A stretch of DNA of 64,000 nt from assembly GCA_945860955.1 (NCBI GenBank), contig CAMATH010000003.1, positions 1-64,000 on the forward strand, read 5' to 3'. The notes below the pieces were generated by a model. The model saw only the letters and a program-made list of their open reading frames with translations, did no database searches and was not told the origin of the DNA. Both the position numbers and the translations under genes were made by a program. This document shows positions 23,488 through 47,227 of the stretch, in pieces; within the stretch, counting starts at the first letter, position 1; each line of letters begins with the position of its first letter. The stretch comes from Planctomicrobium piriforme. Its GTDB lineage: Bacteria > Planctomycetota > Planctomycetia > Planctomycetales > Planctomycetaceae.

Positions 23488-23618
23488 GCCGACTATGATC
23501 GCGAGGCACAGGGTTGAGGACGGCGAGATGCGACGAATTGTGAACCGTGAATCTCGGCGGCAGTGGGTTACGACTTTCCGCAGGCAAACAACGACGTCAC
23601 CACGACGAGCCGCGCCCA

Positions 23619-23650
23619 TCAGGAAGCGGTCACCGCTAACCGCTTCCTGA
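23619..23650. repeat. REP-like hairpin in the manA / E1 divergent gap
   Basis: A 12-bp perfect stem (TCAGGAAGCGGT / ACCGCTTCCTGA) with an 8-base loop. The 390-bp gap between the divergent genes (23488-23878) holds this hairpin and other GC-rich inverted fragments just after it (about 23655-23715), but no gene I can support. The form suggests a REP-type element rather than a promoter. Confidence 0.5.
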
Positions 23651-23878
23651 CGGGAGCGGCTTAGCTTCGGTGTCACCCGATTCGCCGGGGCGAGTTTAGC
23701 TCGGCCTCGCCGCGATTGAAAACGACGATCGACGAATCTCGCCGCGCTTCATTGCCGCGCGTGGCGCAGATCACGATACTGCGTGATCCGAATCCCGCCC
23801 GGCGGTCCCAAACCCCGCTATGGCGGCATGTGAATCGGCGATCCCTCCCCTCCACATTCCCTCTGCGAGCCTCCCGCG

Positions 23879-26014: not shown

Positions 26015-26057
26015 ACGAAGTGCGTTGAAACAGTCAGCGGATCAGGGAGAAGCGTCC

Positions 26058-29000
26058 ATGGCCGGTGCAGTCGACCCGAAGAGTTCGCCCACTCGCGCCC
26101 AACCTGCGCGCGGTGCCGGTTCGCAGCAATATGTCGATTATGACGAATTCGTCGACTATCAGCTCGACAAAACCCGCGCGAATCTGCGCTCGACCGAGAT
26201 TTTCACAACCCTGACCGTCATCGCGGCGGTCTTCGCGGGCTACCTGTTGCTGTTCGTCGTGTTCGATCAATGGGTCATCACCGGCGGGTTTGGCCTGTTG
26301 ACCCGGGGGTTGATGCTGGCGCTGTTGCTGGGGGCGACGGGGGCGGTGGGCTTTCGGCACATTCTGATTCCGCTGTTGCGTCGGATTCACCCGTTGTACG
26401 CGGCCCGCACGCTGGAACAGGCTGACGCCAAATTCCAGGGAAATCTGCTCAACTTTGTCGACCTGCGGGGTGGCGGGCGTCCCAGTTCGGCGGCGGTCGT
26501 GAGGGCGATCGAAAAGCGGGCGGCGGTCGAACTCGACAAAATGGATGTCGAAGAGGCGGTCGATCGTCGGCCGTTGTTGCGGGCGGCGTACGCGCTCTTG
26601 GGAATAGTCGTGTTGTCGGCCGCATACATCGTGCTGTCTCCCAAAGATCCGTTCGCGTCGGTCCAGCGGGCGCTGCTTCCCATGACGGCGATTCAGGTCG
26701 CGACCGAAACGACGATCAGTGACGTGACCCCCGGTGACGCCCGCGTCCCGGCGCGGAGTGTGGTTGTGGTTGAAGCCGACATTCGCGGAAAACCGGTCGA
26801 CCAGGTCCGAGTCCTCTATACCACCGCCGACCGCAAATACGTCGATCAGCCGGTCGAGATGCGGCGCATTGATTCCGGATTGCCGCGGTTCCGCGGGGTG
26901 TTGAACGGCGAAAACGGTCGCGGACTGCTCCAGAGCGTCACCTACAAAGTGGTGGCGGGGGACGCCGAGACACCGTCATACCACCTCGGCGTAAGTCAGC
27001 CTCCGTCGGCCGAAGTGGAACGGGTGTCGTACGTCTTCCAGAACTACATGCAGTTGGAAGACAAGGTTCAGGAAGGGGGAGCGATCGATGGGTGGGAAGA
27101 GGCCCGCGTGACGCTGCATGGTAAAACCAACATGCCGGTCACCTCCGCCCGAATTGTGCTGACCGACACCGATGTTCCCGGGGTCAAGGGGGAGGAAATC
27201 GCGGTTCGTATTACCGACGAAACACAACTAGAGGCGGCCTGGACGCTGAAATTCCGCGCGGACGGCACCTACGCCCGGTTCTACCGTGTCGAAGTCAAGA
27301 CCGCCGCAGGAAATATCGACCCCGAACCGACCTATCATTCGATTGTGATCCGTCCCGATCAACGACCGGATGTCGCGCTCTTGCATCCGACCACGGATCT
27401 CAAGAAGCCCAGCAACGCCGTCGTTCCGTTGTTGATTACGGCGACCGATCCCGATTTCCTGCTGAACGCGGTCGTCCTGAAATGCGAGAAGAACGGCGAA
27501 CCGCTGTCGGATGTGAAGCTGTTTGAATCCGAGATTCCGACGCGCTCGGTGAAAGGAACCTTCGAGTACCAGCTCAAAGAGTTGAATCTCAAACCGGGAG
27601 ACAAGCTACAGTACTGGATCGAAGCCCGCGACAACAAAATGCCCGTCGCGAACCGCACGCCAACGCCGCGGATGAGCATTGAAATCGACGCGGAAAAGTC
27701 GGCCGAAGAGGTTCAGAGAGATCTCGCCCGAGAGCAGCAGCAGCTCGACCGTCAGCTCGCACAGGCTGACCAGGAGAACAATCCCAAACAGCCGCCAGAA
27801 GAGCGACCGAATGACGAGCCGGGTGAGCGGGATCCGAGCGCAGAGCCGGAGGGACAGGCTGCGGAGCGGGCCAATGGCAATCGCAACAACCCGGAAGAGA
27901 ACGCGGGCAACAAAGTGGGCGCTCGCGCTGATCAGCAGCCGGGTGATCCTCAGAATGAGGAGCGAACGGGTGACGACCGGGCTGACCGCAATGGTCAGCG
28001 CGAGGATCAGCAGGAAGCGTTCCAGCGGCAGTTGGAGCGGGTTCTGCAAAAGGAACGAGAGAATCAGCCCGCCGGTGATCGGCAGCCTGAGGGGGATGGC
28101 GATCGCCGGAATTCTGAGAAGAGTGAACAAGAATCGAGCGACGATCGACAGTTACCCGGCGATCCCAAGTCACCCCGTGACGAGCAGAACAATGCCGGTT
28201 CGGGCGGACCGCAAAAAGGTCGCGACGGAAAACGGCCGGATTCCAAGCCTCAGCCCAACCGTGGCCAGGACAAGGATTCGAACAGTCGTGAAGACGGTGG
28301 CGAGGATGCCGCTGACAATTCGTCGCGCGAGGAACAGACTCCGGACAAACAGTCACCCGACGGCGGAGAACGGCGACAGGGGAACGACCGCAAGCCAGCG
28401 GATCCGGGGCGGGACAAGGAGAGCGCGTCCAAAGGGAATGGTGAGAAAGGTTCAAAACCCGACAAATTCCAGGAGCCGGGATCTGAAGAACAGGACCAGG
28501 CTGACGCAGATTCGGGCGATTCGCAATCGGCCGAACGAAACCCCAAGGGGAATTCGAAATCGGGACCAGGAGCCCAGCGACAGCCCAAGCAGAAGGGGGG
28601 CGAGGGAGATCGCGAGCGCCGGGCTGGGGAACCGGGAGCCGATGACCCGACGCCTGCGGAAAACGTCGAAGACGGCGAAGGTGCGAGTCAGAATTCCAAG
28701 GGAGACTCCCGGGCCGGCAAAACGAAGGGGGATAAACCGGAGAAGTCGGGAACAAAACGCGAGTCTGGTGACACACCTGCGACTCAGGAAGAGGGGGGGC
28801 GCGACGACGCGCAACCGAACGCAAACGTGAACGGGACCGATCCCAAGCAGAAACAGAAACCCGGAGCGGATCCCGAACGGAATGGTCGGGAAGGTCAGGA
28901 GAACCAAGGAAAACCCGACGCGAAACAACAGATTCCGGAAGGGGAACGCCCCGATCGTCCGGGTGAAAAGACGCCCCGGCGAAATCCCAATCAAAAAAAC

Positions 29001-30941
29001 CAAAAGAAACCGTCGTCCGACGAAAACGCGGACCCGAACCCCGAGCGGCAATCTCCCGGGGAATCGTCGGGCGAGCCATCCCCCGCCGGGCAGCAGCACG
29101 AGAAAAATTCCAAGCCGGGACCGAGAGGCCAGAAGACGAAAGCGGGGGAACGAAACGAACCCCAGGCGGGTGAGGACCAGAATCCGAGCGGTTCTGCCGA
29201 CGAATCGGAGAACAATGAACCCGGTTCCCAGGAATCAACCGACAACGTGAGGGAAACCGGGCGGAACGGCAAAAACCAAAAGCCAAAGCCGGCCGGCAAA
29301 CAGGGGGAACGCGATCCAAAGGGGGGGCAGAAATCGGGTACCGATGCCCAGAACCCGAGCGAGCCGCAGGCGGGGTCGACTGACCCTGCCGCCGAGGACG
29401 CGAACGGTGAAGAACAGGCTGGGAACGATCCGGCGGGAACCGACCCCAAGTCAAAGGGCGCGAAGCCCGGCGACAAATCGCGCCAGAAGCCGAAAAACGG
29501 AAACGAGAAACAGGGCAATCCGGCCAACAAAGCCCAGGAGACGCCTGGAGAGAATTCCGAGGAGGGCGACCCGCAAGAGAAAGGAGCCGGTGAAAACGGC
29601 GAGGAGGACGCGGACGAAGGCGACCGCGACGAAGGAAATCCATCCGGGAAGCCGAACCAGGGGAAGGGTCAACAGACGCCCAAGTCGGGGAATCAGCCCA
29701 AGAAGCCAGGCGAAAAAGCGGGCCAGCCTCAACCGCAAGGGAAAGAGGGGGGAGACAACGTTCCTCACGACGATCCCGCGTCGGAGAAGTCGGCGAATTC
29801 AGGAAAGGCGAAAAACGATCCGCAACGGCGTCCCAGCAACCCGTCGGAAGTGGGGAACGAGACTCCCAAGGGACAAGGGCGGAAACAGGGACAGAAATCC
29901 GACCAGCCCCAGGCGGGTGAAAACGGCCAAAGTGGCTCGTCTGACCAGGGAGAGAGCGGAGGGAACCAGGAAGGGGCTGGCGAAGGTTCTGAACAGGGTG
30001 GCGATTCGGATACCGCCGACGGTAAGACCGGTCAGTCGAGCGAGAGCCAGTCAGGAAACGGCTCGAAGTCGGGTGCCTCGGGAAAACAGGGAACTAAGCA
30101 GGGAGGCAAGTCGGAAGCCCCCGGCGGCCAGTCGGCGGGTAAAGGAAGCGAAGCGGGGGAAGCCTCAAACGAAGGGGGCGACCCGGGCGACGCGACGGAA
30201 CCCGGCAAAGCGGGAGGATCCAAGTCGGGAGGAAAGCCCGGACCGGCGGGTCAGGGGCAGGGAGGCAAGCCGAACGGCGACGCCCAATCGAATGGGGCTT
30301 CCGCGGAAAAGAGCCACGGAAAACAGTCTCCCGGGGGGCCACCCACAGGAAAATCGAACAGCCAGTCGGGCGGAGGTGCCAACGGAAGTCCGCAGGATGG
30401 CGGTGACCGAGGGGGCGATGACGGTCCCCGTGGTCAGCAGCCGAACGAAAACCAGAAGTCCGATCCTCCCCCCGTTGTGGAAACCGACCCCAATGATGAA
30501 GAGGCCAAGCTGGAGCATCTCCGGGAGGCGAGTAATCTCGTCTTGAAGAAACTCCAGGGAAAACTCGATCGGGGAGACGTCGACGAAGAGTTCATGCGCG
30601 AAATGGGATTTCAGGATCTCGGGGAATTGCAAAAGTTTCTCGCCCAGCTCGAAGAACGGGTGGACGCGTCGGCCGAGGACAATTCCCCCGAAGCGGTCGC
30701 CCGGCGGAAGCAGTTCGAAGAAATGCTGAAGTCGATGCGGCTGGGGGGCGACACGCAGCAGCGGGAACAAGGCCAGACCGGTTCGCGTCGCGTGAACCAG
30801 GTGGACGCCGGCCGCCGCCCTGTGCCGGCGGAACTGCGGGAACGGTACGAAGCGTACACGAAAAGCCTCACAAAACAAAAAACCGAAAAGGGAGACGCCA
30901 AGGGATTGAAGAAGCCCAAGTCGAAGCCCGGCGCCAAATAG
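26058..30941 (+). CDS. Large membrane protein with ~900-residue charged low-complexity region
   Basis: 1627 aa from an ATG with a good AGGGAGA site; an in-frame TTG at 26025 is weaker. Two TM helices (about residues 48-70 and 78-105) are followed by a third hydrophobic segment near 180-200. An ordered extracytoplasmic region of beta-sandwich-like sequence runs to about residue 545. From about 555 to 1480 the chain is a repetitive mixture of Gly, Glu, Gln, Lys, Asn, Pro, Asp and Ser with almost no hydrophobic residues, surely disordered. A conserved helical tail (EEAKLEHLREASNLVLKKL ... PAELRERYEAYTKSL) closes it. The plan, helices then domain then Q/G-rich tail, resembles DUF4175-type proteins that sit near MoxR/DUF58/VWA genes, but this is a resemblance only. 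Function unknown; perhaps a cell-envelope organiser. Confidence 0.8.
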   Translation: MAGAVDPKSSPTRAQPARGAGSQQYVDYDEFVDYQLDKTRANLRSTEIFTTLTVIAAVFAGYLLLFVVFDQWVITGGFGLLTRGLMLALLLGATGAVGFRHILIPLLRRIHPLYAARTLEQADAKFQGNLLNFVDLRGGGRPSSAAVVRAIEKRAAVELDKMDVEEAVDRRPLLRAAYALLGIVVLSAAYIVLSPKDPFASVQRALLPMTAIQVATETTISDVTPGDARVPARSVVVVEADIRGKPVDQVRVLYTTADRKYVDQPVEMRRIDSGLPRFRGVLNGENGRGLLQSVTYKVVAGDAETPSYHLGVSQPPSAEVERVSYVFQNYMQLEDKVQEGGAIDGWEEARVTLHGKTNMPVTSARIVLTDTDVPGVKGEEIAVRITDETQLEAAWTLKFRADGTYARFYRVEVKTAAGNIDPEPTYHSIVIRPDQRPDVALLHPTTDLKKPSNAVVPLLITATDPDFLLNAVVLKCEKNGEPLSDVKLFESEIPTRSVKGTFEYQLKELNLKPGDKLQYWIEARDNKMPVANRTPTPRMSIEIDAEKSAEEVQRDLAREQQQLDRQLAQADQENNPKQPPEERPNDEPGERDPSAEPEGQAAERANGNRNNPEENAGNKVGARADQQPGDPQNEERTGDDRADRNGQREDQQEAFQRQLERVLQKERENQPAGDRQPEGDGDRRNSEKSEQESSDDRQLPGDPKSPRDEQNNAGSGGPQKGRDGKRPDSKPQPNRGQDKDSNSREDGGEDAADNSSREEQTPDKQSPDGGERRQGNDRKPADPGRDKESASKGNGEKGSKPDKFQEPGSEEQDQADADSGDSQSAERNPKGNSKSGPGAQRQPKQKGGEGDRERRAGEPGADDPTPAENVEDGEGASQNSKGDSRAGKTKGDKPEKSGTKRESGDTPATQEEGGRDDAQPNANVNGTDPKQKQKPGADPERNGREGQENQGKPDAKQQIPEGERPDRPGEKTPRRNPNQKNQKKPSSDENADPNPERQSPGESSGEPSPAGQQHEKNSKPGPRGQKTKAGERNEPQAGEDQNPSGSADESENNEPGSQESTDNVRETGRNGKNQKPKPAGKQGERDPKGGQKSGTDAQNPSEPQAGSTDPAAEDANGEEQAGNDPAGTDPKSKGAKPGDKSRQKPKNGNEKQGNPANKAQETPGENSEEGDPQEKGAGENGEEDADEGDRDEGNPSGKPNQGKGQQTPKSGNQPKKPGEKAGQPQPQGKEGGDNVPHDDPASEKSANSGKAKNDPQRRPSNPSEVGNETPKGQGRKQGQKSDQPQAGENGQSGSSDQGESGGNQEGAGEGSEQGGDSDTADGKTGQSSESQSGNGSKSGASGKQGTKQGGKSEAPGGQSAGKGSEAGEASNEGGDPGDATEPGKAGGSKSGGKPGPAGQGQGGKPNGDAQSNGASAEKSHGKQSPGGPPTGKSNSQSGGGANGSPQDGGDRGGDDGPRGQQPNENQKSDPPPVVETDPNDEEAKLEHLREASNLVLKKLQGKLDRGDVDEEFMREMGFQDLGELQKFLAQLEERVDASAEDNSPEAVARRKQFEEMLKSMRLGGDTQQREQGQTGSRRVNQVDAGRRPVPAELRERYEAYTKSLTKQKTEKGDAKGLKKPKSKPGAK

Positions 30942-31047: not shown

Positions 31048-31716
31048 GTGCCCACGTCACTCACATCGTACCTGTCCCCGTTGCACGCCCACCGGACCGA
31101 CCGACACATCGTCGTTCCCACGATGAGCGCGGCTCGCGAATGGATGAAACTCGGCACGCACCCGCTGGATTTCATCTACGCCCCCTCGGCCATGGGTCAG
31201 GCTCCCGCGCTGGGATTGGGCCTGGCCCTCGCCCGGCCCGATCGGCAGGTGATCGTTCTCAATGGCGATGGTTGCCAGTTGATGAACCTCGGTTGCCTGG
31301 TGACGATTTCGGCTCAGCGCGTGCCCAACTTCATGTTGATTGTCTGCGACAACGGCGCGTACGAAGTCACCGGGAATCAGGCGACGGCGGCGACCGATTC
31401 GACCCGCCCCGTCGATCGCCCGGTCCGTTTCGCGCAGATCGTCGCCGGGTGCGGCATTCCCGCCACGTTTGAATTCGAGTCCGCCACCGATTGGGCCAGT
31501 GGCCTGCAGCTCACGCTGTCGACACCCGGTCCAACCGTTGTCATCTGGCGAGTCGCCGTCGATCCTGCGGGTACGGTCCCCCGATCCCCGTCCTCCGCGC
31601 CGGAGCGGGCGCGGAAATTCGCGTCGGAACTTGCCGCACATGGTTCACTTGGGAAAAACGAAAAGTCGATCGCAGTCCAAACCAGCGCCCGTGCCGGCGG
31701 ACTCGGTGGCGACTGA
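31048..31716 (+). CDS. ThDP-binding (PP-domain) half-enzyme, sulfopyruvate-decarboxylase beta-like
   Basis: 222 aa covering only the C-terminal, pyrophosphate-binding type of ThDP domain. The motif NGDGCQLMNLG followed about 25 residues later by CDNGAYEVTGNQ is the GDG...N signature in the form used by sulfopyruvate and phosphonopyruvate decarboxylase beta chains (ComE-like). A partner carrying the PYR domain is needed for catalysis and is not found in the window. The GTG at 31048 is preferred over the ATG at 31123 because the homologous strand (RHIVVPTMSA) lies between them. Its 3' end overlaps the next gene by 77 bases if that gene starts at 31640, which ties it to the DUF5682 operon. Residues after about 175 are not conserved-looking. 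Confidence 0.72.
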   Translation: MPTSLTSYLSPLHAHRTDRHIVVPTMSAAREWMKLGTHPLDFIYAPSAMGQAPALGLGLALARPDRQVIVLNGDGCQLMNLGCLVTISAQRVPNFMLIVCDNGAYEVTGNQATAATDSTRPVDRPVRFAQIVAGCGIPATFEFESATDWASGLQLTLSTPGPTVVIWRVAVDPAGTVPRSPSSAPERARKFASELAAHGSLGKNEKSIAVQTSARAGGLGGD

Positions 31717-34162
31717 AGTCGTTTCGAATGTCGCTCCAACGTCCCTGGATATTGAGGCGATCCTGCAGGGGGACGCCGCGCTCGCCGGGGTGCGACCGGT
31801 CGACCTGACGCAGCGCGTGGTTTATTTTCCCGTCCGGCATCACAGTCCGGCGTGCGCCTGGCATGTGGGTCGGCTGATTCGCGCATTGCGTCCGAACGCG
31901 GTCCTCATCGAAGGCCCGCGCGACGCCACGCCGCTCGTGCCGCTGCTGGTTCACGCCGAGACGCAAATGCCGGTCGCGATCTATGCGACCTATGTTCGTC
32001 GGGTGAAAGCTGAACTCCCCGAGCGTCACGCCGCGTATTATCCCCTGTGTGGCTACTCTCCCGAACTCGAAGCGGTCCGTGCCGGGCTGGAGGTGGGAGC
32101 CCAGGTGAAATTCATCGATCTCACGTTTCCAGAGAAAGTCGAAGCGGGAGCCGCCAGTGAATCGGTGGACGCTGTCGCCGCCGAACGCGCCGCCGCCCCG
32201 ACCGCGATCACCCGGACCGGCAGCCTGCAGGATGAATCGTGGTTCTCGCACAGTCGGCTGTTGCGCGCGGCGTGTGTGCGGACCGGCGCACGCGACCATG
32301 ACGATCTCTGGGATCATCTGTACGAAGTCGATTACCAGTACGTTTGCACGGATCAATTCATCCGCAATGTGCTGCTGTACTGTGCGCTCGCCCGTCGGGA
32401 TTCCACCCGGGAACAGCTCGCAGCCGACGGCTGTCTGGCTCGCGAACAGGCGATGGCCGCCGCGATTTCCGAAGAGCGTGAACGGGTCGTGGTGGTAACG
32501 GGTGGCTTTCACACCGTGGCGCTTCCCGAAACAACTCCTGCGTGGCCGGCCAACCGCAAGATCTCGCCCGACGATCGGCAAGTGGTGCTGATGCGCTACA
32601 GTTTCGAACAGCTCGATCGATTGAATGGCTACGCCAGCGGCATGCCCTCGCCCGAGTTCTACCAACGGGACTGGGAGGAACGGGACGCGAGCGAAATGCT
32701 CGTGGAAATCGGCCGCGAATGCCGTCGCAAAAACCTGGGGCAGTCCACCGCCGACGCCATCGCCGCCGTCGGCCACTCCCGACGTCTCGCCCACCTGCGG
32801 GGCCACGTGCGCCCGTCACGAGAGGATGTTCTCGACGCCATTCGCAGCGTGTACATCAAAGGGGCCGACGATGCCGAAGGGGTACCGGTCCTCGCCATCG
32901 CCCGCAAATGGCTTGCAGGTGATCGCGTCGGCAACGTCCCTCTGGAAGCGGGCCAGCCCCCGATTGTCCACGATTTCCGAAATACCGCCACCCAATTGAG
33001 GCTCAAACTCGACAAGGCCGATGAGACCGAATCGATTCTCGACTTGTATCGAAAATCGAATCATCGCGAAGTCAGCCGGATGTTTCATCGGCTGGCATTC
33101 ATCGGCGTCCCGTTCGCCAAATTCGTGCGTGGCCCCGATTTTGTCGCGGGCGAGAACCTCGAGCGAATCCAGGAAGTGTGGCGGTATGCGTGGTCGCCGC
33201 AAACGGAATCGACTCTCATCGAACGTTCGCTCTATGGGTCGACAATGGAAGAGGCGGCGACCGGCATGCTGCTCGAACGCTTTCAGGTCGCCGAAGCCGC
33301 GGGACAGGGACGCAGCGCCGCCGTCGCGACTCAACTGGTGATTCACGCCTGCCGGATGGGACTGCATCGTCACACCGGCGATCTGTTGCGGCGCGTCGCG
33401 GGCCTTTTAACCGATGACGCGGCGTTCGACTCGCTCGTCACGGCGATGGAAAATCTCCTGGCATTGGAAGTCTCCCGGGAACCGCTCGAAGCGCATCATC
33501 TAACGGGGTTGTCCGAATTGGCGATGGCAGCCTATCGCCGCGCCTGCTTTCTGATTCCCGGATTGGTGAACACGCCCGTTGAAGAGGAATCCAAAACTCT
33601 CGAAGGGCTCAATGCGCTCGTGCAGGGAGGGCGATCGCTGGGGGACGGTCCGGAACTGCGGACCTTGCGATCCGAAGCGCTGGCGGCCCTGGCCGGGACC
33701 ACAGGAGGCAGTGCCGTGGTGCGCGGCGGTGCGGTCGGCGCATTGTTTGGTGATGGCTGTTGGGACGGAGACCAGGTTGTCGCTGCGCTTCGCGGGCATC
33801 TGTTGAGCAGTCGCGACGGCGGTATCGAGGGACCACACTTTCTGCGTGGTCTGCTGCTGACCGCGCGGGGCATTTTATGGAGCGTCGAGGGCATTCTCGA
33901 CGGAGTGTCTCTGGTTCTGGGGACATGGGACGAAGATCAATTCATCCGACTGCTTCCTCTACTGAGGCTCGCGCTTTCGGATCTGACGCCCCGCGAAACC
34001 GACCGCATCGCCCGGATGATCGCGGCCCGCGTGGGAGCGAAGAGTCTGAACATCGAAGCAATTTCCGACGTCGACAGCCTGCAAATGCTGCGCGGTGTCG
34101 CGTTAAACAAGCGAGTTCGCGACTCACTGATCGCCGACGGACTGGAGGCTTTCAGTGAGTGA
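31640..34162 (+). CDS. DUF5682 family protein
   Basis: 840 aa. Near the N-terminus it has YFPVRHHSPACAWH and NAVLIEGP.DATPLVPLL, then CGYSPELEAVR and, at about residue 285, VVVVTGGFHTVALPE. These are the hallmarks of DUF5682. The pair of an early Glu in IEGP and a late GGFHT resembles the EreA/ChaN/TraB hydrolase-like fold, which is inference. The rest is helical. The start is uncertain: ATG 31640 overlaps the ThDP gene by 77 bases, and in-frame GTGs at 31691 and 31706 would reduce this to 26 or 11. Its stop overlaps the VWA gene start by 8 bases. DUF5682, VWA, SWIM and a MoxR ATPase are known neighbours in many bacteria; here the ATPase is missing. Confidence 0.85.
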   Translation: MVHLGKTKSRSQSKPAPVPADSVATEVVSNVAPTSLDIEAILQGDAALAGVRPVDLTQRVVYFPVRHHSPACAWHVGRLIRALRPNAVLIEGPRDATPLVPLLVHAETQMPVAIYATYVRRVKAELPERHAAYYPLCGYSPELEAVRAGLEVGAQVKFIDLTFPEKVEAGAASESVDAVAAERAAAPTAITRTGSLQDESWFSHSRLLRAACVRTGARDHDDLWDHLYEVDYQYVCTDQFIRNVLLYCALARRDSTREQLAADGCLAREQAMAAAISEERERVVVVTGGFHTVALPETTPAWPANRKISPDDRQVVLMRYSFEQLDRLNGYASGMPSPEFYQRDWEERDASEMLVEIGRECRRKNLGQSTADAIAAVGHSRRLAHLRGHVRPSREDVLDAIRSVYIKGADDAEGVPVLAIARKWLAGDRVGNVPLEAGQPPIVHDFRNTATQLRLKLDKADETESILDLYRKSNHREVSRMFHRLAFIGVPFAKFVRGPDFVAGENLERIQEVWRYAWSPQTESTLIERSLYGSTMEEAATGMLLERFQVAEAAGQGRSAAVATQLVIHACRMGLHRHTGDLLRRVAGLLTDDAAFDSLVTAMENLLALEVSREPLEAHHLTGLSELAMAAYRRACFLIPGLVNTPVEEESKTLEGLNALVQGGRSLGDGPELRTLRSEALAALAGTTGGSAVVRGGAVGALFGDGCWDGDQVVAALRGHLLSSRDGGIEGPHFLRGLLLTARGILWSVEGILDGVSLVLGTWDEDQFIRLLPLLRLALSDLTPRETDRIARMIAARVGAKSLNIEAISDVDSLQMLRGVALNKRVRDSLIADGLEAFSE

Positions 34163-35423
34163 TCCGACAACCGATTCCGCCTCCAGTCCCCCCCCTGCCC
34201 TTCCCGACGACAGCGTTACCGTGATCCCGGCATCTGTCGTTCCACAAACGGAGGGACATTCCGAACTAGAAATTGCCCGTTGGCGACTCGTGTTGGGACG
34301 GTTCGCCGAACCTGGCTTGGGATCGGCCGGACCAGACAATTCTACACAACGCCGCATGGACCGCTGTCTCGACTACTTATACGGCCGGGAATACCACGGA
34401 CGGGGGGTCCGCGGAAAGTCATCCGGAGGCAAAGGGGGAACCGCCGATCCCGATGCCGACAACCGGTACGGTGGCGACGGCGAGAGCATTTTGGCCATCC
34501 CCGAATGGCTGCAACAGGTCCGCGAACTGTTTCCCAACGACACCGCCGAGATCATTCAGCGGCACGCTCTCGACCGCTACGGAATGACCGAGCTGGTGAC
34601 CGACCCCGAAGTTCTGAAAAAGCTGGAGCCGAGTTACGAACTGCTCAAGGCGGTGCTGGCGTACAAGGGCATGATGAAGGGGGAAGTACTGGAAGTCGCC
34701 CGGCGGATCGTCCGGCAGGTGGTTGAGGAACTGCGGAGAAAGCTGGCCAAAGACGTTCGGCGGGCACTGTGGGGGCGGCTCAACAAGCAGCGCCGGAGCC
34801 GACTGAAGGTGTTGCGCAATCTCGACTGGCAACGGACCATTCGCGCGAATCTCAAGAATTACGATCTCCAGCGGAAACAGGTGGTGCTGGGGGCGCTGCA
34901 TTTTTCTTCGCGTGTCGAACGGCACATGCCGTGGCACATCGTCATGCTGGTCGATTGCAGTGGTTCGATGATGGACTCGGTGATTTACAGCGCGGTGATG
35001 GCGGGGATCTTCAAGGGGTTGCCCGCGGTCCGCGTGAGCCTGGCGGCGTTTGACACCCAGGTGGTCGACTTCAGCGAAGAAATCGACGACCCGACCGAGA
35101 TTCTCATGTCGGTGCAACTTGGCGGCGGAACGAACATCGCGGGCGCACTCGGTTACGCGGAATCGCTGGTTGTTTCACCCACACGGACGATCGTGGTGCT
35201 GGTGACCGATTTTTTCGAAGGAGGATCTCCAGCGCCAATGGTCGCGTCGATCAAACGGCTGTGCGAGCAGGGAGTGCGCGTGATCGGCCTGGCGGCGCTC
35301 AACGAAGAGGCGCTGCCGTGCTATGACAACGAAGTCGCGCAGCGCTGCGTGGATGTGGGCGCGGACGTGGCGGCACTGACACCAATCAGGTTGGCGGAAT
35401 GGCTGGGACGCATCCTTTCCTGA
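34155..35423 (+). CDS. VWA domain protein (CoxE-like) with intact MIDAS
   Basis: 422 aa starting with GTG inside the end of the DUF5682 gene. The N-terminal part is helical and highly charged (about residues 100-240, Lys/Arg-rich). The C-terminal von Willebrand A domain starts near 260: MLVDCSGSMMDS gives the DxSxS metal site (Asp267, Ser269, Ser271). The MIDAS Thr is in GGGTNIAGAL and the Asp in VLVTDFFEGG, so the metal site looks complete. VWA proteins of this kind usually work with a MoxR AAA ATPase as a metal-dependent adaptor. Its 3' end overlaps the SWIM gene by 25 bases. Confidence 0.9.
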   Translation: MSDPTTDSASSPPPALPDDSVTVIPASVVPQTEGHSELEIARWRLVLGRFAEPGLGSAGPDNSTQRRMDRCLDYLYGREYHGRGVRGKSSGGKGGTADPDADNRYGGDGESILAIPEWLQQVRELFPNDTAEIIQRHALDRYGMTELVTDPEVLKKLEPSYELLKAVLAYKGMMKGEVLEVARRIVRQVVEELRRKLAKDVRRALWGRLNKQRRSRLKVLRNLDWQRTIRANLKNYDLQRKQVVLGALHFSSRVERHMPWHIVMLVDCSGSMMDSVIYSAVMAGIFKGLPAVRVSLAAFDTQVVDFSEEIDDPTEILMSVQLGGGTNIAGALGYAESLVVSPTRTIVVLVTDFFEGGSPAPMVASIKRLCEQGVRVIGLAALNEEALPCYDNEVAQRCVDVGADVAALTPIRLAEWLGRILS

Positions 35424-37618
35424 CAAAACTGCGGGCGATCCTCGCCACGCAGGATGACGACGCATTGGCCGCTCTCGCCAACAAGGGGCTGTTGCGCCGC
35501 GCGCAAAAGGACCTCGAAACGCAACGTCCCACGCTGGCCGAGGTGACCGACACGCACATTCGACTGACAACCACAGAAGCTACGGTTGTCATTCCGGAAC
35601 TTCTGGTCAAAAGCACCTGCACCTGCCCCGCCTCCGGCGTTTGCCGGCATGTACTTTCGGCGCTCGTCGCTCTCCGAGACGCATTATTTGTGGGCGGCCC
35701 CCAGTCTGCCGACCTCCAACCCGCGGAGCCTGCGGAACCGACCGTTGACTCGTCGGCGACCGATGTCACTCCCGTCGTTCAGCGCGAGAATCGTCCTGCA
35801 TCCGCAACGGTCGACCGCGCAGCCGCCGTCGCGTCACCCGCGGAGGTTCTTGGTTCCGTCAGCGACGAGGAATTGCAGAAATGGGCGGGCAAAGCGACCT
35901 ATCGCAAGGGGGTGACACTGCTGGCGAATTCGCCCAATCGCCTGGTCGAAGCCGGCGGCACTCTGGTCGTGAGATTTCCCGATCGGAACCTGGTGTGCCG
36001 GTGGATTCCCAGTTCCGGACTGGTCGGCATGGTCTGTTCCTGCCAGGCCGAGAATGCCTGCGAACACGTGGTGGCGGCGGTTCTCGCGTATCAGATCACG
36101 TTGGGACGGGAGACGGTCACGCCGGTCGATCGCGTGCTGACGGAATCTTCCGGCGCGCCGCGCACCCGGGCTGAAGTGCTGGAATCGGTCGGAAACGTCT
36201 TGCGGGAAATCCTTGTTGTGGGATGCTCGCGAATGGCTCCCGCGAGTTCTCAGCGGTTGACGACACTCGCCGTCTCGGCCCACGGCGTCGACCTCCCCCG
36301 GCTCGAACGCCAGATCCGCGGTCTGGCGAAAGAGGTCGACCTCATGCTCCGCCGCGACGCGCAGGCGAGTGTCGTTAATCTGCTGGCCCACGCCGCCCGA
36401 CTCGAAGCGCTGCGGTCGGCTCTCGTTCATAGCAATCGGCCCGATCACGTGGGAGAACATCGATCACAATATCATTCCGTCGGTGAGATTCCCTTGATTG
36501 GACTCGGGGCGCAGCGGTGGGTCTCCAAAGGGGGCTATAAGGGAGTCACCGTCTATTTCTGGGACGAGTCTCGAAAGAACTGGGCGACCTGGACGGATGC
36601 CCGTCCGGTGCGCGACGGCATGTTCGATCCTCTCAAGCGGTTTCGAGAAGATGGTCCCTGGACCGGTTGCGGCACCCCGGACCAGGCCAGTCAGAATCAG
36701 CTCCGCTTGTTGAACGCGTTCCGCAACGCGAACGGCCGGCTGTCCGGACGGCCGGCCACCAAGGCACTGGTGGTCGCCCCCACTGATCTCACTGCCCTGC
36801 CCAACGTGTTGACGCGTTGGAACGAGATCCGCGCCCAGGCCGTCGCGCTATTCGACGGCGGACTCACCAACCGTCCCGAGAATCAGGAACTCGTGCTGCT
36901 ACGCCCCTCCGATTGGGGGCCACCCTTCTTCGACACTCTGCGCCAGGAATTGCTGCGGCCGATCGTCGATGAAGTCGGACAACAGGTGAATCTGTGGTTG
37001 CCGTTTTCCGAGGAGAACCGTGCCGCGATCGACTGGCTGGAACGGCTTCAATCGAAGGAGCGTCCGCTCGTGTTGGGGGCGATTCGACTGGTCGTGGGAC
37101 AGGTGGCGATCCAGCCGATTTCACTTTTGGAACCCAAGCGGATTGTCTCCCTGAATCTGGTACGAGACCTCTCGGGAAAAGCGAACGGAAAATCGACGTC
37201 AGGGATTAAGGCATCCCGACGCGCCGGCACCGTCGGGAACGACCCTGGCTCGGGTGGCGAAGAAGCCGAGGTGGAGCTGGATGGCGATCCCGTGGAATTG
37301 ACGGGGCCGGCGACACCATTGGGGCGGTTGCTGATCACCGCCTTGGCGGAACTGGAGACGCTGGCCGAAAACGGTGTTGTCGCCCGACGTGATCCCAAGG
37401 TGCTTGAGGAGGCGGCGCGGCGGATGGATGCGCTGGGACTGTCGGTCTGCGCGCGACCAATTTCGCGGCTGGCGGCGGAACTTCGGGCCGTCTCGCCACA
37501 GGGCAACGCCGAGAGACCGGCACAAATCGCGGGAACACTGCTGCGGGTGGCGTACGTCCTTCGATTGACCGCCGATGCCGAGCTGGCGTCGAACGCAACC
37601 GCGATGAATGGGACATGA
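35399..37618 (+). CDS. Double SWIM zinc-finger protein
   Basis: 739 aa, ATG within the end of the VWA gene. It has two SWIM fingers of the form CxCx5CxH: Cys74-Cys76-Cys82-His84 (CTCPASGVCRH) and Cys213-Cys215-Cys221-His223 (CSCQAENACEH). An Ala/Pro/Thr-rich linker lies between them. The remaining ~500 residues are mixed alpha/beta without a motif I can name; no helicase or nuclease motif is visible. SWIM fingers mediate DNA or protein binding. It is the last gene of the overlapping DUF5682-VWA-SWIM set. No transmembrane segment or signal peptide, so the module is probably cytoplasmic. Confidence 0.88.
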   Translation: MAGTHPFLTKLRAILATQDDDALAALANKGLLRRAQKDLETQRPTLAEVTDTHIRLTTTEATVVIPELLVKSTCTCPASGVCRHVLSALVALRDALFVGGPQSADLQPAEPAEPTVDSSATDVTPVVQRENRPASATVDRAAAVASPAEVLGSVSDEELQKWAGKATYRKGVTLLANSPNRLVEAGGTLVVRFPDRNLVCRWIPSSGLVGMVCSCQAENACEHVVAAVLAYQITLGRETVTPVDRVLTESSGAPRTRAEVLESVGNVLREILVVGCSRMAPASSQRLTTLAVSAHGVDLPRLERQIRGLAKEVDLMLRRDAQASVVNLLAHAARLEALRSALVHSNRPDHVGEHRSQYHSVGEIPLIGLGAQRWVSKGGYKGVTVYFWDESRKNWATWTDARPVRDGMFDPLKRFREDGPWTGCGTPDQASQNQLRLLNAFRNANGRLSGRPATKALVVAPTDLTALPNVLTRWNEIRAQAVALFDGGLTNRPENQELVLLRPSDWGPPFFDTLRQELLRPIVDEVGQQVNLWLPFSEENRAAIDWLERLQSKERPLVLGAIRLVVGQVAIQPISLLEPKRIVSLNLVRDLSGKANGKSTSGIKASRRAGTVGNDPGSGGEEAEVELDGDPVELTGPATPLGRLLITALAELETLAENGVVARRDPKVLEEAARRMDALGLSVCARPISRLAAELRAVSPQGNAERPAQIAGTLLRVAYVLRLTADAELASNATAMNGT

Positions 37619-46965: not shown

Positions 46966-47190
46966 GCGGGGACAAGGCCCCGCGGTCCATGGACTGCGGG
47001 ATCTCGATCCCGCCTTTCGTTCTACCTCACAATGTCTTGCAGCAGGCGGAGTCGGCTCCCTGCCGAGGCGGCCGGTCCAACGCGGCATAACACGGCGTCG
47101 GGCGTCGATCGGAAGTTTCGGTCGAGAGTTGTTTCTGTCTGCCGGTTGTCAATGTCGGATGAAGGAAAGGCGGGATCGAGATCCCGCACT
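46966..47190. repeat. REP/BIME-like cluster of palindromes
   Basis: The 325-bp gap 46903-47227 between convergent genes contains no gene but three related hairpins. GCGGGG...CCCCGC is at about 46966-46983. GCGGGATC-TC-GATCCCGC is at 46996-47013. Its exact inverse GCGGGATC-GA-GATCCCGC is at 47170-47187. Flanking bases extend the inverted match to about 28 bases with one mismatch, and upstream bases (CGGAT.AAG.AAAGGCGGG) also match in direct orientation between units one and three. This is the layout of bacterial interspersed REP doublets. Confidence 0.6.
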
Positions 47191-47227
47191 CCAAGGGCCT
47201 TCCTCACTCGACATCCGACCAAACTCC

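Follow-up and report, generated by a model that had tools for sequence, protein, structure and literature searches.

A YehL-type DUF5682-VWA-SWIM module with an unlinked MoxR ATPase in Planctomicrobium piriforme, and the predicted TIKI-like fold of its DUF5682 protein

The genome of Planctomicrobium piriforme contains three overlapping genes for a DUF5682 protein, a VWA protein and a SWIM zinc-finger protein, which belong together with a MoxR ATPase to the YehL-type module, a widespread bacterial gene set known from Escherichia coli as yehL-yehM-yehP-yehQ. The ATPase of this module has been displaced to another contig, and the gene for a ThDP-binding protein that overlaps the trio at its upstream end is unrelated to it. 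We hold this combination of module identity, displaced ATPase and unrelated neighbour, taken jointly, with high confidence. The DNA analysed (the window) comprises the first 64 kb of a 112-kb contig (C3) of a draft genome of 8.4 Mb in 282 contigs (G000), and no Rfam families were detected in these 64 kb.

The trio and the YehL-type module

The trio consists of the following genes:

31640..34162, + strand: DUF5682 protein (YehM orthologue), 840 aa, with an ATG start conserved in the sister species
34155..35423, + strand: VWA protein with a CoxE-like domain (YehP orthologue, 45% identity), MIDAS motif DxSxS present
35399..37618, + strand: SWIM zinc-finger protein (YehQ orthologue), with fingers near 35600-35671 and 36035-36094

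The respective Pfam profile matches are to DUF5682 (PF18934, E 1e-110), VWA_CoxE (PF05762, E 5.5e-49) and SWIM (PF04434, E 1.4e-6). An earlier note on this DNA had described three genes overlapping by 8 and 25 bases, a VWA protein with an intact metal site and a double SWIM-finger protein, and all of this agrees with the open reading frames and profile matches: the overlaps extend over 34155-34162 and 35399-35423, the metal site is there, and the second finger is visible as CxCx5CxH and aligns with YehQ.

The proteins encoded in this genome are 50, 30, 45 and 25% identical to the products of E. coli yehL, yehM, yehP and yehQ, respectively, the value of about 25% for YehQ referring to the finger region. 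Compared with the yehI-yehL-yehM-yehP-yehQ cluster of E. coli K-12, where the MoxR ATPase YehL is encoded directly upstream of YehM-YehP-YehQ, the orthologous DUF5682, CoxE-like VWA and SWIM proteins are found in the same module order, and a YehL-type MoxR as well as a DUF4132 protein are also encoded in the genome. The differences are that the trio is linked to neither the MoxR nor the DUF4132 gene and that the DUF5682 protein carries an N-terminal extension of about 50 residues, predicted with low confidence. A fifth protein that recurs with the module is the YehI-like DUF4132 protein of about 1190 aa, present in 71 of 81 loci (for example at L226:15674-19240); its module-type copy in P. piriforme lies on contig C39 and is 1020 aa long, with 32% identity. 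The full set comprises a YehL-subfamily MoxR AAA+ ATPase, DUF5682, a CoxE-like VWA protein and a SWIM protein, in most cases joined by a DUF4132 protein, and the copy described here is a dispersed one, with the trio in one cluster, the ATPase on C106 and the DUF4132 protein on C39. In loci of Paenibacillus and Brevibacillus, the VWA and SWIM genes are about 3.5 kb apart.

In the literature searched, DUF5682 is not mentioned, yehM, yehP and yehQ appear together in one genome announcement only, the papers on DUF4132 give no function for the YehL-type module, and no biochemical data on proteins of the module were found.

The displaced MoxR ATPase

A whole-genome profile search yielded 48 AAA_5 matches, none of which lies on the contig of the trio; there is therefore no MoxR ATPase in the window, as the earlier note had stated. 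The best match (121.9 bits) is the following protein:

C106:17613-18761: YehL-subfamily MoxR ATPase, 383 residues, 50% identity to E. coli YehL

Scored against a MoxR protein of the module, it reaches 554 bits, compared with less than 40 bits for the other MoxR paralogues of this genome that were tested. In 59 related genomes, the co-occurrence of DUF5682 and a YehL-type MoxR (both/DUF5682 only/partner only/neither) is 22/1/1/35 (p=5.7e-14), and that of DUF5682 and the VWA protein is 23/0/1/35 (p=1.7e-15). The sole genome with DUF5682 and without MoxR (G025) has a DUF5682 gene that is truncated by a contig end.

A collection scan with an alignment of seven DUF5682 sequences gave 248 matches, and among the best 80 of these the MoxR gene is found directly upstream of DUF5682 on the same strand in 78 loci, a fraction which is valid for that set of best matches. 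Judged by their record titles, the 80 loci span about seven phyla, namely Planctomycetota, Verrucomicrobiota, Cyanobacteria, Proteobacteria, Spirochaetes, Firmicutes and Actinobacteria, and the two exceptions are those of the sister species G002 (L181) and of G014 (L194). The upstream position is therefore usual, not universal: it is missing in G000, G002, G014, G044 and G048, with MoxR, DUF5682 and VWA genes located on three separate contigs in each of the last three, while G035 keeps one MoxR gene with DUF5682 and has VWA-SWIM elsewhere. The expectation of the earlier note that these families recur together with a MoxR ATPase is thus borne out, and the whole-genome search for the co-occurring clade that it had proposed leads to the gene on C106. 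Its suggestion that the module works without an ATPase or borrows one is not supported, and loss of MoxR or recruitment of another MoxR was rejected in view of the dedicated enzyme on C106, which is paired one-to-one with the module. As judged from this near one-to-one pairing and the usual upstream position elsewhere, the ATPase has been displaced rather than lost.

The surroundings of the MoxR gene match between P. piriforme and its sister species, which indicates that the displacement predates the split of the two. The closest relatives of the displaced MoxR are also those of the trio (L182, L183 and L184), and the similarity ranks correlate with rho values of 0.65-0.74 (0.74 for MoxR versus DUF5682), as would be expected for joint vertical descent. 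That the ATPase is displaced and yet almost perfectly paired points to a module that functions as a unit whether or not its genes share an operon.

Two minor observations may be added. One relative (G013:C49, L120) has a MoxR gene broken by a TGA codon together with a VWA gene, and no DUF5682 was found there; this set is possibly a decaying module or a draft error. Furthermore, a 39-nt inverted repeat with 90% complementarity and arms 138 nt apart is present at 46984-47199 of the window, and a similar sequence occurs near the displaced MoxR gene of the sister species.

The ThDP neighbour and the synteny junction

Upstream of the trio, the following features were identified, the last of them on a different contig:

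31048..31716, + strand: ThDP-binding protein (TPP_enzyme_C), beta subunit of a two-gene sulfopyruvate/phosphonopyruvate-decarboxylase-like enzyme, outside the module
31621..31634, no strand: synteny junction, with the left side matching contig C558 of the sister genome (to 31634) and the right side matching its contig C401 (from 31621)
C49:52502-53011: TPP_enzyme_N alpha subunit of the ThDP enzyme

An overlap of the ThDP frame with DUF5682 had been reported in the earlier note and does exist, but a DUF5682 start in the 940-aa frame from 31340 was rejected; the ATG at 31640 is the one kept in the sister species, and the overlap therefore amounts to 77 bases. The junction lies 6-19 bp before this ATG, and the last 27 or so codons of the ThDP frame are a non-homologous read-through into the 5' DNA of DUF5682 in another frame; the overlap was created at the junction of a rearrangement. 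In the sister species, the ThDP gene (90% identical) is found on C558, where it follows the large low-complexity gene that also precedes it in the window, and DUF5682 is located on C401 next to a gene resembling one for TolC-type efflux. The adjacency of the ThDP gene and DUF5682 is restricted to P. piriforme and stems from a recent rearrangement or a misjoin, without functional pairing of the two.

An assembly misjoin instead of a real rearrangement at 31621-31634 appears unlikely. It would fit a draft assembly of this many contigs and the matches of the two sides to different contigs of the sister genome; against it, both sides are native to the genus, being 91-93% identical to one and the same sister genome, the junction is well inside the 112-kb contig, and many further places show a shuffled gene order between the two species. 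In either case, the adjacency is without functional meaning. The idea that the ThDP protein entered the module and took over from its ATPase, or bypassed it, put forward in the earlier note on the grounds of adjacency and frame overlap, both found in this one genome, is hardly tenable in view of the ATPase present in the genome, the separation of the two genes in the sister species, the lack of any association with DUF5682 in 59 genomes (7/16/12/24, p=1.0), and the lack of recurrence of a ThDP gene beside DUF5682 in these genomes or in the neighbourhoods of the best 80 of the 248 loci. Matches to the ThDP protein in Paenibacillus score 40 bits and are separated by about 5 kb from the complete module downstream. 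With a MoxR ATPase that pairs one-to-one with the module from elsewhere in the genome and a ThDP gene that does not recur, the layout is ordinary: the module is known, though uncharacterised, and its genes have become dispersed in this lineage as well as in some relatives. Two attractive ideas, the missing ATPase and the ThDP partner, are thereby removed.

The ThDP gene itself matches TPP_enzyme_C (E 1.6e-20), and the nearest counterparts of its product are the C-terminal half of phosphonopyruvate decarboxylase and the beta subunit of sulfopyruvate decarboxylase. Like the ComDE-type sulfopyruvate/phosphonopyruvate decarboxylases, it is a TPP_enzyme_C beta half whose TPP_enzyme_N alpha subunit is a separate protein, but it remains below the cut-offs of both equivalogs (90.6 versus 221.5 bits for TIGR03846; 104.4 versus 312.5 bits for TIGR03297), and the two subunit genes are unlinked in this genus, while beta directly follows alpha in several relatives. 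Beta and alpha co-occur almost without exception in 40 genomes (15/1/0/24, p=4e-10). The alpha gene is located just after a gene that reads like an aldehyde dehydrogenase (L280 on C49, 5933-8012), which suggests a pathway from a decarboxylase to an aldehyde dehydrogenase.

Other features were noted around the ThDP gene. The gene preceding it (26025-30941) codes for a 1638-residue protein with a long low-complexity region rich in Gln, Lys, Gly and Asn and without a Pfam match, and this arrangement is seen in three species of the genus. A dispersed intergenic palindromic element of the REP-like type at 23607-23661 (folding energy of this copy -43.9 kcal/mol, z -7.1) recurs at about 40 places in the genome and also in the C401 segments of the sister species, and some of the synteny breaks between the two genomes adjoin such repeats.

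Predicted fold of DUF5682 and possible action of the module

On fold and motif evidence, the N-terminal domain of DUF5682 looks like a member of the TIKI/TraB/EreA/ChaN superfamily, in line with the possible EreA/ChaN-type hydrolase suggested in the earlier note. The relevant parts of the protein, all on the + strand, are as follows:

31802..32536: TIKI/TraB/EreA/ChaN-like domain, residues 55-299, from the predicted structure
31835..31843: R66-H67-H68 after strand 1, with H67 invariant, at the first catalytic-type His position of the residue set of PMC6254334
31910..31912: E91 of the IEGP motif, a Glu that follows strand 2 and is invariant in alignments
32441..32443: R268 (RExxM), invariant basic residue, from alignments
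32510..32512: H291 (GGFH), invariant second His, from alignments
32687..34129: mostly helical HEAT/ARM-like tail, residues ~350-830, from the predicted structure

The model of the full protein (pLDDT 84.8) consists of an alpha/beta N-domain and the helical tail, and the N-domain folded alone reaches a pLDDT of 87.7 and a pTM of 0.88. The comparison of this isolated domain with VIA-align was decisive for the fold call, as Foldseek alone gave weak matches with DUF5682 (best E 0.016). All of the top 13 VIA-align matches belong to the superfamily (Z 5.8-10.3), followed by unrelated ones with Z values from 4.9 and then below 4. The best match is a subunit of Tetrahymena complex IV (Z 10.3, 198 aligned residues, 4.4 A), a complex reported to contain a TraB-family protein (PMC10060162), which we infer to be the matched chain. 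The proposed comparison with proteins of the EreA and ChaN kind gave Z 8.6 for ChaN (166 aligned residues, 4.9 A) and 6.3 for EreC, and further matches are HopBA1 (7.4), RRSP (6.0), Bcr135 (5.9) and PMT (5.8). At the level of sequence profiles, ChaN (PF04187) is the only frequent second Pfam match, found weakly, with an E of 0.013 at best, in 12 of 53 members; a search of 40 relatives with TraB (PF01963) gave one match, inside the DUF5682 protein of G048 (E 2.3e-4, below the Pfam cut-off). A PDB sequence search with DUF5682 profiles returned no TIKI match and only a weak one to a sulfite oxidoreductase, and the tail matched designed armadillo repeats.

PMT, HopBA1, Bcr135, ChaN and RRSP have been assigned to one TIKI superfamily, the active enzymes of which contain two His, two Glu and a conserved Arg, represented in RRSP by E3900 (the first Glu), H3902, E3930, R4001 and H4030 (PMC6254334). 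In 53 DUF5682 homologues from many phyla, the invariant positions are R66-H67-H68-S-P, E91 (IEGP), SPE, D160, R268-E-xx-M, G-G-F-H291 and G-Y-xx-G, of which R66, H67, P70, E91, R268, G288 and H291 persist across 20 sequences of greater diversity. By their order and strand position, H67, E91, R268 and H291 correspond to RRSP H3902, E3930, R4001 and H4030. DUF5682 thus shares with ChaN (2G5G), EreC (6XCS/6XCQ), Bcr135 (3B55), RRSP (6A7H) and HopBA1 (5T09) the predicted parallel-sheet fold and the same order of a His after strand 1, a Glu after strand 2, an Arg and a GGxH His. It differs in its fusion to a HEAT/ARM-like tail, in being encoded with a MoxR/VWA motor, and in having an Arg (R66 of RHH) in place of the first Glu (RRSP E3900), so that the assignment is made to the superfamily and not to its active 2His/2Glu endopeptidase type. 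This fold-level assignment for a family on which no paper was found in the literature searched provides a first testable lead on function with named residues to mutate. For a gene cluster that many bacteria, E. coli K-12 among them, carry and that is unstudied, it supplies a concrete hypothesis.

A shared mode of ATP-driven remodelling by MoxR/VWA couples has been argued from work on NorQD, in which the VWA domain is proposed to plug the ring and to bind the client through its MIDAS (PMC9976466). By analogy, a MoxR hexamer docked through the VWA protein may spend ATP to remodel DUF5682 or a substrate that the HEAT-like tail of DUF5682 holds; alternatively, MoxR/VWA might deliver substrates to DUF5682. 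The TIKI-type N-domain would act as a hydrolase of peptide or ester bonds or as a metal/haem site, the SWIM protein may help to recognise targets, and the SWIM and recurrent DUF4132 proteins would be further partners. We infer a physical complex, catalytic activity and direction of action in proposing, tentatively, that the YehL-type module might be an ATP-driven hydrolase machine, in which the MoxR/VWA motor controls or feeds DUF5682 as a protease or esterase of the TIKI superfamily with a HEAT-like arm. We know of no described example of a TIKI enzyme run by an AAA+ motor. The replacement of the first Glu of the 2His/2Glu set, the low sequence-profile and Foldseek support for the fold and the broken operon linkage to the ATPase in this genome speak against this overall reading.

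It is about equally conceivable, and likewise short of probable, that the module serves as a NorQD-like cofactor-insertion chaperone for an external client, with DUF5682 as a non-catalytic scaffold or a ChaN-like metal/haem carrier. MoxR/VWA couples insert metals or remodel clients (PMC9976466), the haem-binding ChaN is the second-best fold family, and the Arg at the first catalytic Glu position would suit such a role. However, the invariance of H67, E91, R268 and H291 in 53 proteins from many phyla is as expected of an active site, and no recurrent client gene is found in the neighbourhoods except that for DUF4132. Other MoxR-VWA systems have been described as conflict systems (PMC7159879), and the patchy distribution in about 40% of the relatives would fit an anti-phage or other conflict function, but this is improbable for the YehL-type module, which has no match to a PADLOC model and no recurrent mobile or defence gene among its conserved neighbours.

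The YehL-type module shares with the NorQ/NorD, CbbQ/CbbO and RavA/ViaA couples a MoxR AAA+ protein and a VWA partner in which the MIDAS motif is intact. The YehL-type ATPases represent a different MoxR subfamily from these, and their module contains DUF5682, SWIM and DUF4132 proteins as extra partners.
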